IMG/VR virus record: IMGVR_UViG_3300032308_001291
Coordinates: 1 to 32,337 of that record
Length of the DNA stretch: 32,337 nt
Origin: a virus
Direction: 5' to 3' (one strand)
Both the position numbers and the translations under genes were made by a program. Shown piece by piece: positions 20,178-23,679 of this stretch (the stretch's first letter is position 1; every line of letters begins with the position of its first letter). Below the pieces are notes generated by a model. That model saw only the letters and a program-made list of their open reading frames with translations. It was not told the origin of the DNA and did not search any database.

Positions 20178-20819
20178 TTATGCCCACGTACCTACGTTCA
20201 CGTTAGCCCCAGATGCACCGATTGGGTAGATCAGGAAATAGCTGCCAGCTTGCGTGGTGTAAGCACCCCCAGGCGCAGCGGACAGTGTGTACTGCGGGAT
20301 AAACGTGCCGCCAGCGTTGACAGAAACTGTACCTCGAACCGCTATAGCAAACGAAATGGTTGCGGAACTAATGCTTCCTGACGCAGTAGCCGAGGTAGCC
20401 GAATTTGAAATGAAATACGCGGCTCCGGTAGCGTATGTAGGAAGCGCGTTATTGATGTAGCTAGTCGGGCCGCCGTGGCTAATGTTGTTCAAAGTAGCCG
20501 TGCCGCCGTAGCCAAGACCAACCGTATGGCTAGTCGTTCCTGCGGTCTTGGTAAAAACATACAGAGCTTCAAACGCATATACCGTACTTGCCGACAGCGT
20601 TACGCCTACCCCAAGTACGCTCTGTGCCGTGTTGACGTTTGCGCCAGCTAGACCAGCATCCAAACGGAAGAACTGCGCGCCCGGCACAACGCCACGCTGT
20701 GTACCTTGCGGCGTGGCGTAAAACACCTTGCCGTCATAGTTAAATTCGCCGGGCGCTGCTGTACCTAACGTATCGGCGTTAAGGACAAAGTTATCTGTAC
20801 CGCTAATGACTACTGACAT
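20178..20819 (-). CDS. Tail-fibre-like beta-rich module, 213 aa
   Basis: The product starts MSVVISGTDNFVLNADTLGT and consists of short strands rich in Gly, Thr, Ser and Ala, with TAQSVLGVGVTLSASTVYAF and TAGTTSHTVGLGYGGTATLN that I recall from many phage virion proteins. It has no cysteines or membrane helix. It overlaps the next upstream small gene by 10 bases and is preceded by GGGGGC. It is probably an exposed fibre or decoration protein for host binding. Confidence 0.75.
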   Translation of the reverse strand: MSVVISGTDNFVLNADTLGTAAPGEFNYDGKVFYATPQGTQRGVVPGAQFFRLDAGLAGANVNTAQSVLGVGVTLSASTVYAFEALYVFTKTAGTTSHTVGLGYGGTATLNNISHGGPTSYINNALPTYATGAAYFISNSATSATASGSISSATISFAIAVRGTVSVNAGGTFIPQYTLSAAPGGAYTTQAGSYFLIYPIGASGANVNVGTWA

Positions 20820-21034
20820 GATAGCCCCCTTAGTTCATCCAAAGTCGTGCAAGTATCCACTTGAGCTGTAATGTCACGCAGACGCTGCTTCTCAGCCACA
20901 ATCGCGGTTGTATCGCCATTAGCTTCTAGCGCACGTTGAAATGCGACATCTTGAGCAGCTAGCAAAGGTGTACGTTCAGCACGAAGCCGATCTTTAGTAA
21001 TCGCCTTGGCCTTGTCAAAGTCTATCGAGATCAT
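20810..21034 (-). CDS. Small helical protein, possible tail-fibre assembly factor, 74 aa
   Basis: The helical product starts MISIDFDKAKAITKDRLRAE and has RTPLLAAQDVAFQRALEANG and VAEKQRLRDITAQVDTC. This pattern resembles the small tail-fibre assembly or chaperone proteins that precede fibre genes in other phages. It overlaps the upstream gene by four bases (ATGA) and the module downstream by 10. The role is suggested by neighbours. Confidence 0.65.
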   Translation of the reverse strand: MISIDFDKAKAITKDRLRAERTPLLAAQDVAFQRALEANGDTTAIVAEKQRLRDITAQVDTCTTLDELRGLSCQ

Positions 21035-21234
21035 TCAGTCACCTCAGTAAAGTCAGCCGTCCATGCGCCACGGAATTCACGGTCAGCCGGAATGTCAGCA
21101 GCGTCTACAACCTTAAACGGCTTGCCGCTAGGCACGTCTTTAGCAGCGATCTCTTGCAGACTTAGACCGCACTCAGGTGCAGGAGTTAAGATGCAGATAC
21201 CGCCGTTGTCGTTAGGGTAGATGATGAGTTTCAT
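21031..21234 (-). CDS. Small tail-region protein, 67 aa
   Basis: Begins MKLIIYPNDNGGICILTPAP, followed by ECGLSLQEIAAKDVPSGKPF and KVVDAADIPADREFRGAW. I recall the pattern 'IAAKDVP.G.P..vvd...lP.DR.FR.AW' from proteins located beside fibre genes in many tailed phages. AAAGGT precedes the ATG. Function unknown; probably works with the small helical protein just downstream. Confidence 0.7.
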   Translation of the reverse strand: MKLIIYPNDNGGICILTPAPECGLSLQEIAAKDVPSGKPFKVVDAADIPADREFRGAWTADFTEVTE

Positions 21235-21243
21235 GGTTGACCT

Positions 21244-21648
21244 TTAGCGGAAAAACGCTACGTTAACGATTGCGTTGTCTGTTGGATTACCATTAGAAGC
21301 CCTCCCAACCACTACTCTGCATTGAGTTGTGCTATAGGTTGTAGCTGCCGATTCTGTCCCTGCAATGTCGACCACGTTTTGCACGTTTGTTGCGCCAACA
21401 GCTAAACATGACCCGCTCATAGAATAATTCGCATCCGGCATCGCACTCGTAAAGTTCACCGTATAGTCGCCCGCACCGTTATCCGTAATCGAACTTACGT
21501 TAAACGATGCACGAATAGCGACAGTGCCTGTACCGTTAAAGTTAACAAACGCGCGGCATAGCGTACCAATCTCCGTTCCGTTAGTGTTGTTAAACGTAGG
21601 TGGAGATGTGCTATTTGATTGTATTGTTCCAACAACGACTGTAGACAT
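21244..21648 (-). CDS. Tail-fibre-like module (FNGTGTVAIR type), 134 aa
   Basis: The ATG at 21648 has GGAG eight bases upstream; a start six codons earlier lies inside the homing endonuclease gene. The product starts MSTVVVGTIQSNSTSPPTFN and contains the repeated virion module AFVNFNGTGTVAIRASFNVS and SSITDNGAGDYTVNFTSAMP. The module is very common in phage tail fibres. The N-terminus resembles that of the 22-codon remnant at 22121-22189 (VGTIQ against VADTIQ). Confidence 0.8.
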   Translation of the reverse strand: MSTVVVGTIQSNSTSPPTFNNTNGTEIGTLCRAFVNFNGTGTVAIRASFNVSSITDNGAGDYTVNFTSAMPDANYSMSGSCLAVGATNVQNVVDIAGTESAATTYSTTQCRVVVGRASNGNPTDNAIVNVAFFR

Positions 21649-21650
21649 AA

Positions 21651-22124
21651 TTAAACTCCAATACAAGGTTTGGCGAATTCGCCATGAACATACGGTGCTG
21701 CTTTTGCATACGCCATAGCCGCCTCTGCTTCTGTGTCAAAAACGCCTAGATACTTTCTAACGCCTTCTTTTTGTATTACTGACATATACCGGCCTGATTT
21801 AAGTCTGTATGCGCCTTTAGTAGCCCTACCTTTATGCGGCTTGCTGTTAGCTTTGTTATCTGACTTTGTTGCCGCCCTTAAATTTTCTATCGTATTGTTT
21901 AACGTATTACCGTCAATATGGTCAACTACTTCAGGCCAACTTCCAGTTTCAAAAAAATATATCACTCGGTGGCAAGAATAGTTTTTTCCGCGAAACTTAA
22001 ACCTCAAATAGCCATGACAATTACTTCCGGCCTTTGAACCAACAGGTGCTTTAGAGTTTGGAGATTTCGCCCAGTATAAAACTCCATCTTTATACGCTAG
22101 ATATTCGGAAAGTAGTTCAATCAT
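21651..22124 (-). CDS. HNH homing endonuclease with AP2 DNA-binding domain
   Basis: This 157-residue protein shows an HNH_3 fold: SCHRVIYFFETGSWPEVVDH with H52, D68 and H69, then DGNTLNNTIENLRAATKSDN with N73, N76, N81 and N90. Residues 103-150 form an AP2-like DNA-binding domain (KGAYRLKSGRYMSVIQKEG, then YLGVFDTEAEAAMAYAKAA). Such free-standing genes copy themselves into phages that lack them by cutting near their insertion site. The gene is more A/T-rich than its neighbours, which suggests recent arrival. Its ATG overlaps the stop of the tail-fibre remnant. Confidence 0.92.
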   Translation of the reverse strand: MIELLSEYLAYKDGVLYWAKSPNSKAPVGSKAGSNCHGYLRFKFRGKNYSCHRVIYFFETGSWPEVVDHIDGNTLNNTIENLRAATKSDNKANSKPHKGRATKGAYRLKSGRYMSVIQKEGVRKYLGVFDTEAEAAMAYAKAAPYVHGEFAKPCIGV

Positions 22125-22189
22125 TTCTTTAGCACCAGCGTACTTGTACTGTCTGCCTGAATGGTATCTGCTACGATAGTTCCAGCCAT
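22121..22189 (-). pseudogene. Truncated tail-fibre module start, 22 codons, fused to the homing endonuclease
   Basis: AAGGAACGATC and an ATG at 22189 open MAGTIVADTIQADSTSTLVL followed by KK and a stop. The residues match the opening of fibre modules such as the adjacent MSTVVVGTIQS. The reading frame ends at the TGA that forms ATGA with the endonuclease start. This looks like the N-terminal stub of a duplicated module whose rest was displaced when the endonuclease arrived. It still supplies a ribosome-binding site and would couple translation to the endonuclease. Confidence 0.6.
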
Positions 22190-22198
22190 GATCGTTCC

Positions 22199-22780
22199 TT
22201 ACTCGTAGAGAATGTTGATGGTGCCAGCGTCGAAGGTGTCGGTACCGCCTACTGTGGTGATGCGGATTTGAGTAAGCGTTGCCCCAATATCGGCCGACCC
22301 CGCGCTAACAGTTAAAAACGCGGCAGAAGGATAATTCAAATTAGCGGCGCACGCCCACGCGTTACCCGTAACATTTACTAAAGTTATTACGCCGCTATAA
22401 GCATTTGCCGCACCTGTTCCCGCCGTTACTAAAAGACCAGTAGTACTGTTTGCGCCTGATGTTTGGTTGGCTCCCCCCACTTGGCTAGACGAGCTAGAGT
22501 ATCCAGCAACCGCAAATCCTCCGGCAGCGCCTAATTGAATTTGATAGTTTGATGTTCCGGTAGTTGACACGCCCCTAAACATCACCGTAATCCGCTTCAC
22601 CCACGACGGTATGCCTGTGAAATCAACCGACGTACCAGACGCAGTTACCGCCGTACCCGACACAATCGGTGCTAACGTACCAGTGACGTTCACCAGCGTC
22701 TGTGTCGTACTGCCCGCTACAGCAGGAGCAGATACCGTAATCGAACCGGATGTATCGCCTGCGAGAACTAAAGAAGCCAT
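22199..22780 (-). CDS. Tail-fibre-like module (GIPSWVKRITVMF type), 193 aa
   Basis: MASLVLAGDTSGSITVSAPA opens a beta-rich protein with VTASGTSVDFTGIPSWVKRI, TVMFRGVSTTGTSNYQIQLG and a C-terminal DTFDAGTINILYE. The DFTGIPSWVKRITVMF block is one I associate with tail fibres of many phages. AAAGGA precedes the ATG. The gene ends 10 bases before the truncated module. It is probably a trimeric surface protein. Confidence 0.82.
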   Translation of the reverse strand: MASLVLAGDTSGSITVSAPAVAGSTTQTLVNVTGTLAPIVSGTAVTASGTSVDFTGIPSWVKRITVMFRGVSTTGTSNYQIQLGAAGGFAVAGYSSSSSQVGGANQTSGANSTTGLLVTAGTGAANAYSGVITLVNVTGNAWACAANLNYPSAAFLTVSAGSADIGATLTQIRITTVGGTDTFDAGTINILYE

Positions 22781-22791
22781 GATTTATCCTT

Positions 22792-23679
22792 TTATAAAAC
22801 GACCCACCGAGCGCCAGACGACACCGTCACAATCACCGCTGCAGTAATTGCAGTGATCGACGCTGACTGCGACGTGCCCACCGTATACGTACCAATGCCG
22901 CCGGTGCCGGTGCCCAACTGTGTAATCGTTGTGCCTGCGGTAATGCCCGAACCTGCAATGATCGAGCCCACACCTAAAGCGCCAGACGTTGCGGTGTCAA
23001 CTGTCAGCGTGGTGCCTGCAATGCTGCCGCTGCCCACAAAGCCAGCACCCAACGTGATTGGGCCGGTGGACATGGCATTCTTGGTCGACGGGATTGTGTA
23101 GCTCAACGTCACCGTCTGGTCGTTCTCATAGAAGACTTCATCAGACCCGTTACCTGTTGCGCCTGCGCCGCCTACCTGGCCCCACTCGCCGTTGGTGTAG
23201 CCCTCGAAGATGTCTTCCGTGCTGTTGTACCGGAACATGCCTTCTGCTGGCGCAGCAGGCCGGTCAGTCGTTGCCCCAACAGGCATCTGCACGTAGCCGG
23301 TGCCGGAGAACGTGACGTCCAGCGTAGCCGACAAGGTGGTGAACGCACCGCTGTTAGGCGCGACGTTACCGATCGCTGGCGGTGAGCCGAACGACAGGTT
23401 GTCGACAGGCACCAGGATGTTATCGGTGGTGTACTGCGTGACGTCGTTCGAGTCGGTGATCAAGAACTTGTACGCAATCGTCGGCTGCAGCCAAATGTTG
23501 GCCATGCCGCGCGCGTCAAGAATAATTGGGTTCGTGTTGGTGCTGCTGCCCGCCTGATCCGTGAACGTCGCAATCGGTGTCGTCGTGCCGCCTGCGTAGG
23601 TGTAAACCTTACCGGCGACTAACGGATTCCCGTTGGCGTCAAAGAACTGCTGCTTGGGTGTTGGGGTTAGGGATGCCAT
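22792..23679 (-). CDS. Tail fibre / appendage protein, 295 aa
   Basis: Residues 1-90 ([20 protein letters not shown] through [17 protein letters not shown]) are the widely shared tail attachment domain that precedes fibre modules in many phages. The middle has [20 protein letters not shown] and a NGEWGQVGG, and the C-terminus ends [11 protein letters not shown]. Between VSYTIP-like strands and that end is a GTTLTV...GIGTYTV module of about 60 residues that the paralogous end at 28297 lacks. It is the most fibre-like protein in this cluster. GAGGAAATAA precedes the ATG. Confidence 0.85.

Follow-up and report, generated by a model that had tools for sequence, protein, structure and literature searches.

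The closest described systems are the mobile ORFs (mORFs) of fungal mitochondria, which sections of one report describe from atp6 of Allomyces and from atp6, atp9, cox2, and nad3 of Glomus (PMC3630166), with similar atp6 and cox2 cases mentioned in sections of another (PMC4019555). According to the former, an endonuclease gene invades a protein-coding gene, a divergent piece substitutes for the terminal part of that gene, and the native remnant stays close to its counterpart in relatives; the substitute provides the C-terminus and leaves the remnant downstream (PMC3630166). Among phages, sections of a further source describe mobE, mobA, and segF of T4 as free-standing homing endonucleases (HENs), promoter-less cassettes in coding clusters (PMC2988022). 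A UAAUGA start/stop overlap at mobE suggests coupling, host genes split by mobA in T4 and by mobE in Aeh1 are encoded as two polypeptides, and a group I intron encodes I-HmuI (same sections of PMC2988022).

Here, we describe a locus in a viral stretch of 32,337 nucleotides (the window), whose arrangement would be, by analogy, the mirror image of a mORF at the 5′ end of a gene, working like a mORF without being a member of that group. As in the mORFs described in sections of PMC3630166, an endonuclease gene appears to have invaded a protein gene, a divergent piece substitutes for one end of it, and the native remnant is close to that of relatives, with 65 of 65 nt identical. Unlike in mORFs, the substitute is not C-terminal but forms the N-terminus and has its own start, while the remnant lies upstream, at the translation start of the HEN. 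The setting differs as well: a phage, with HNH or GIY-YIG-like HENs of putative mobility. The locus shares with the free-standing HENs of T4 the position of the HEN in a coding cluster, a start/stop overlap, and the splitting of a host gene (sections of PMC2988022), but unlike the split genes of T4 and Aeh1, the host gene of the window begins anew behind the HEN and encodes a single complete protein from a substitute start. Our search of the open-access literature, in the sections it covered, found no description of such a start-capture anatomy in phages.

The stub, the endonuclease, and the slot they occupy

All features of the locus lie on the minus strand (Table 1). The stub, translated from 22189 to 22121, reads MAGTIVADTIQADSTSTLVLKK followed by a stop codon, and its TGA overlaps the start of the HEN as ATGA (22124..22121), so that it ends flush with the endonuclease start, as the first-pass annotation of this DNA had noted. 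That annotation had also given the stub a ribosome-binding site and a fibre-type N-terminus resembling that of the next module, and both observations held: AAGGA precedes the ATG by 6 nt, and the stub peptide aligns to the start of the next gene, MSTVVVGTIQSNSTS, with a local score of 40, which a fraction of 0.0013 of 1532 mismatched pairs reached. The next fibre gene starts 2 nt past the HEN stop.

Table 1. Features of the locus, listed in the direction of transcription.
Feature	Coordinates	Strand	Details
Upstream fibre-type gene, 193 aa, C-terminus ..TFDAGTINILYE and stop	22199..22780	-	Tail fibre PHROG_18673, E 1.4e-7
Shine-Dalgarno (SD) motif of stub, AAGGA	22196..22200	-	Overlaps upstream-gene stop; 6 nt before ATG; -6.1 kcal/mol
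Stub, captured native fibre-gene 5′ end, 22 codons	22121..22189	-	nt 22189..22125 match intact gene at 65/65, then HEN start
HNH HEN, 157 aa	21651..22124	-	HNH_3 domain and weak AP2 match; PHROG_99
SD motif of restarted fibre gene, GGAG	21656..21659	-	Within final HEN codons; -5.9 kcal/mol
Restarted fibre gene, 134 aa	21244..21648	-	Tail fibre PHROG_11355, 2.6e-17
Substitute 5′ end MSTVVVGTIQSNSTSPPTFNNTN, 69 nt, 23 codons	21580..21648	-	67/69 in L003
Fibre core	21244..21579	-	First half nearest to cores of MAG-type-start genes

Sequence comparison confirmed that the stub is real: it represents the opening 65 nt of a tail-fibre gene, which relatives lacking the HEN carry intact. All 65 nucleotides are identical to the starts of full-length fibre genes in four contigs (L091, L099, L119, and L120; L168 and L166 denote the same contigs as L091 and L099, respectively). 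A viral-contig pattern scan and two protein scans yielded 46 distinct ORFs with this type of start among the loci examined; a pattern scan of genome contigs gave no matches. Forty-four of these ORFs are closed at the 3′ end, and stubs occur only in the window (22 codons) and in a sister locus, L003 (20 codons); the next shortest closed ORF has 122 codons. The full-length module that the first-pass annotation had expected in relatives without the endonuclease is therefore present, and these genes, together with similar captures elsewhere (see below), support its proposal that the HEN took over the start of a fibre gene.

The intact fibre gene sits, in L091/L168, L099/L166, and further relatives, between homologs of the upstream and downstream genes of the window, the upstream-gene homologs standing ahead of the same slot. 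The early part of the single slot gene of these relatives corresponds to the stub of the window, and a later part to the core that follows the HEN. Because it matches both, the slot holds one gene, consisting of a native 5′ end, the HEN, and the restarted gene, rather than two modules. The first-pass annotation had instead suggested a duplicated fibre module, of which the HEN left just the first 22 codons in one copy, the rest being absent from this position. The N-terminal similarity of the stub and the next gene fits such a duplication, but the relatives examined have one slot gene that accounts for both parts, and the supposedly missing remainder is the gene downstream of the HEN, with another 5′ end. 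This rules out two modules among the relatives examined and makes duplication a very improbable origin of the stub. In another phage, a homolog of the upstream gene is followed by an ORF that appears GIY-YIG-like by eye (L205:4649-5257).

The HEN of the window matched HNH_3 above the cutoff (E 1.3e-14) and PHROG_99 (3.3e-51). An AP2 match stayed under the cutoff (E 0.0066; 17.2 bits against 33.3), PDB AP2 chains matched weakly, and of seven other HNH HENs scanned, five gave a weak AP2 signal. In its HNH region, the protein is similar to PDB 1u3e (E 5.7e-5), which we take to be I-HmuI; unlike for I-HmuI, no group I intron was matched at the window. The HEN is an ORF of its own (22124..21651) outside any detected intron, and its GC content is 40.5%, against 55.6% for the window. 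A group I intron carrying the HEN was considered and rejected, as no Rfam intron and hence no catalytic RNA was found in 20800-22900 down to an E value of 1. The sole Rfam match near the HEN was rmf, at E 0.81 and 20 bits against a gathering score of 45.

Duplex energies with the anti-SD sequence were -6.1 kcal/mol for the stub, -2.8 for the HEN, and -5.9 for the restarted fibre gene. Among 2000 random 20-mers from the window, the mean was -2.6 kcal/mol, and 8.5% reached -6. The SD of the HEN is thus no better than background, while that of the stub is fair, and the HEN probably relies on the captured fibre-gene start for its translation.

The substitute start and possible traces of endonuclease loss

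The divergent substitute piece sits on an intact 134-aa host-gene frame, as judged from the reading frame. Its 69 nt match L003 at 67 positions, while the next best of 48 other genes compared scored 0.65. The core that follows is of another type. Over its first 90 nt, compared without gaps to 40 genes, it shares 77-86% identity with 16 genes that start with MAGTIVAD or MAGTVVAD, against 67-76% with the MST-type genes of L001, L245, and L183. The comparison is not clean, as L116, which has a MAGTVVAD start, reaches 60%, three MAGTVIAD-type genes 69-73%, and genes with longer cores 51-66%. All of the best 14 other blastn matches listed for the window core carry MAG-type starts.

Starts of the MST type are ordinary alleles, as they directly follow a longer open frame, with no stub, at 21 of 22 loci, many of them near-identical. 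An allele swap without any HEN could therefore have made the junction seen in the window. In such a scenario, an MST-type start recombined in first, the old start was left as debris, and the HEN settled later at the ready junction. L003 fits this scenario, as it has a stub and an MST start with no HEN in between: MAGTIVADTIQADSTS-LGGA and a stop codon are followed by an MST-type gene at TAATG. The window and L003 are identical at 115 of 120 nt from the restart and then continue into different cores, so that the same start is joined to two cores, whose best matches, apart from each other, are MAG-type genes. The breakpoint of L003 is earlier than that of the window, after 16 native codons. Against a prior swap, the stub of the window extends 17 nt beyond that of L003 and is flush with the HEN start, and no spacer like that of L003 is found beside the HEN. 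A similar anatomy also occurs with HENs in other genes, as set out below.

A further argument against a prior swap comes from L090. Here, MAGTI is followed by YLVTNNL, which are the next seven residues of the HEN in L088, and then by GGAGAAGCATA and a recoded fibre start. Seven HEN codons thus remain between the native and the substitute start, while the HEN itself is absent, and the locus reads as a scar of HEN loss. Taken together, we consider the allele swap unlikely, although less so than duplication. Since L090 suggests that stubs can persist after loss of the HEN, L003 may also be such a scar rather than a counterexample to the takeover. The first-pass annotation had held that relatives without the endonuclease having only the short frame would speak against its reading; this is the case for one relative, L003, and not for L091, L099, L119, and L120, which have the full gene.

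The 15 nt ahead of the L003 restart are nearest to those of L090 among 3868 other SD-led starts, with 12 of 15 positions shared (next best, 11). Part of this spacer motif is common start context in these arrays, which makes the likeness weak, so that we only infer a scar in L003. Two other origins of the L003 spacer were not supported: as mutated native codons, 2133 of 20000 shuffles scored as high, and as a remnant of the 3′ end of the window HEN, 19995 of 20000 did. If L003 did lose a HEN, and a different one from that of the window, a single substitute start would have been used with two HENs. A scar screen of 3064 gene starts covered the 319 short ORFs with an SD ahead of them, and L003 ranked top with a score of 40 (99.9% null score, 33.6; null maximum, 50). 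Second in this screen, with a score of 35, was a 27-codon ORF before a gene start at L073:3831, which may be a frame artifact.

Similar captures in other phage genes

By sequence, an anatomy like that of the window can be recognized at HNH HENs in L317, L286, L338, L324/L111, L269, L268, and L025 and at GIY-YIG-like HENs in L088/L324. L317 has a 13-codon stub like that of the window; in-frame fusions of the captured start to the HEN are present in L111/L324, L286, L338, L269, L268, L025, and L088. In L111 and L324, an HNH HEN continues the frame of MSQV, the native start of a post-fibre gene, and behind it this gene restarts with other codons, ATGAGTCAAGTG for ATGTCACAAGTA. In L269, another HEN is entered from a start that equals the native one of L132 over 21 nt. 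L025 has a HEN that extends the frame of the fibre start MSQVRVNTIVDANSGNTAQINGMTPTA and is followed by a different fibre allele; in L019, this start leads into a fibre-type frame. The GIY-YIG-like HENs of L088 and L324 both carry a fused MAGTI that belongs to the fibre family of the window; the HEN of L088 matched the profiles of NUMOD3 (6.3e-10) and, under its cutoff, GIY-YIG (0.0012). Behind the GIY-YIG-like HEN at L324:1479-2090, the fibre gene shows ATC and no ATG where a restart is expected, and it may thus either initiate at an unusual codon or be nonfunctional.

The restarted genes of L317, L324, and L088 diverge from a native gene at the extreme 5′ end and resemble it closely thereafter. 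In L324, 84 of the first 120 nt and 115 of the next 120 match native L105. The fibre restart of L088 matches L106 and L115 at 23/30 and 21/30, respectively, and then both at 30/30, while native L106 and native L115 match each other at 28/30 and then 30/30. The restarted nuclease gene of L317 was compared with MW202545.1, a named relative of this gene that lacks the HEN and has a different upstream flank. Here, 42 of the first 60 nt and 86 of the next 90 match; later 30-nt segments range from 19 to 29 of 30, and since they drop to 19-23 in places, the divergence is not limited to the 5′ end. L286 gives a mixed picture, as its restart matches native L006 at 44/60, while native L006 matches three other natives at 56/60, 50/60, and 47/60. 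In a manual alignment of the starts (first 4 to 13 codons) of six parallels (L317, L338, L286, L268, L269, and L111), the two copies differ at 22 of 31 degenerate codons that encode the same residue; all four of those in L269 are among the nine unchanged. At L338:2474-3581, an HNH HEN starts with MTVKLVWIT and precedes a gene similar to phage thyX genes, which starts with MSVKLIWIT; all five same-residue degenerate codons among its first nine are changed.

In a gapped screen, the peptide immediately preceding each HEN was aligned to the beginning of the gene that follows it, with 1532 mismatched pairs as null. From 139 HEN ORFs, 117 remained after dropping HENs identical over a 120-nt stretch, and 103 were scored; for the other 14, no downstream start could be scored within 45 nt, as in L111, where the contig ends. 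Scores of at least 40 were found for four of the 103 (L286, 52; L317, 46; L338, 44; window, 40), where approximately 0.13 are expected from the null, which reaches 40 at a rate of 0.0013 and has a maximum of 47; without the window, this makes three of the other 102. L269, L268, and L025/L266 scored 25, 23, and 27, under the 99% null score of 29; the captures in L269 and L025/L266 were identified from reading and from starts without a HEN, and that in L268 from reading. Captures such as MSQV of L324 were missed by the gapped screen and found by reading. In an earlier, ungapped prefix screen, L142 was top with 19, and the window scored 6, a low value due to its two starts differing by one residue in length.

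None of the 16 HENs from named phages showed the capture anatomy, the best score being 22 against a 95% null score of 23; we picked these regions from 60 listed of the 1362 records with a match. Among seven array HENs read, six lack a capture, and all seven have an SD-like motif of the next gene near their 3′ end. HNH HENs also lie between a large fibre gene and a MASLVLAG-type or MSSV-type gene in L006, L093, L166, L201, and L228; in L006, L166, and L201, a start capture was not seen, and an SD-like motif of the next gene lies at the HEN 3′ end. The six array HENs and the 16 named-phage cases without a matching start agree with an ordinary free-standing HEN, common in the family, that sits in a gene junction beside a stub that is a neutral leftover with no role. 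The HEN of the window, however, has no SD above background and starts inside the stop codon of the stub, and captured starts are fused in frame to HENs in the loci listed above. An ordinary HEN next to a functionless stub is therefore a highly improbable account of the locus.

Proposed mechanism and its implications

The stub identity, the one-gene slot, the substitute 5′ end, the SD placement, the parallels, and the L090 stub with its HEN codons, all of which are found in the sequences, point to a probable explanation: the one fibre gene of this slot carries a mobile HEN in its 5′ end, keeps its native start as a leader, and restarts behind the HEN. The native start, comprising the SD, the ATG, and 21-22 codons, would remain upstream as a short leader ORF. 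Ribosomes loading on the stub SD would stop at the ATGA and re-initiate on the HEN by coupled translation, and the HEN would in this way obtain the fibre gene's own translation start. At the new SD in the final HEN codons, the fibre gene would restart with the substitute N-terminus joined to the fibre core, so that the fibre protein would still be made. The HEN would cut intact fibre starts and home into them. The different substitute DNA would shield the HEN-bearing allele from cutting, providing immunity, and would hinder loss of the HEN through recombination between the two start copies; the HEN and the substitute end would have arrived together. Counting against this explanation are the MST-type alleles, which are stub-free in 21 of 22 loci, the substitute start of L003 without a HEN and with an earlier breakpoint, the weak likeness of its spacer to that of L090, the uneven core comparison, the later divergence in L317, the mixed picture of L286, the unchanged codons of L269, and the lack of a capture at six of the seven array HENs and at all 16 named-phage HENs.

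More tentatively, HENs from two or more families in phages, HNH and GIY-YIG among them, may be recurrent start-capturing cassettes, which enter a gene within its first codons, use its SD and start through fusion or coupling, supply a recoded 5′ end and a new SD, protect the gene, make the allele immune, and leave a stub-plus-recoded-start scar upon HEN loss. We give this general reading slightly less than an even chance, and it is weakened by L317, in which divergence is not confined to the 5′ end.

The locus illustrates a way in which a HEN might invade the coding region of a gene that the phage needs, with neither an intron nor an intein. The parallels in other phage genes suggest a recurring route to invade a gene without destroying it. 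The predicted footprints are tiny leader ORFs with a differently coded gene start behind them, even after HEN loss, as in L090. Annotated gene starts in HEN-rich phages should thus be treated with caution, as they can be supplied by a HEN.
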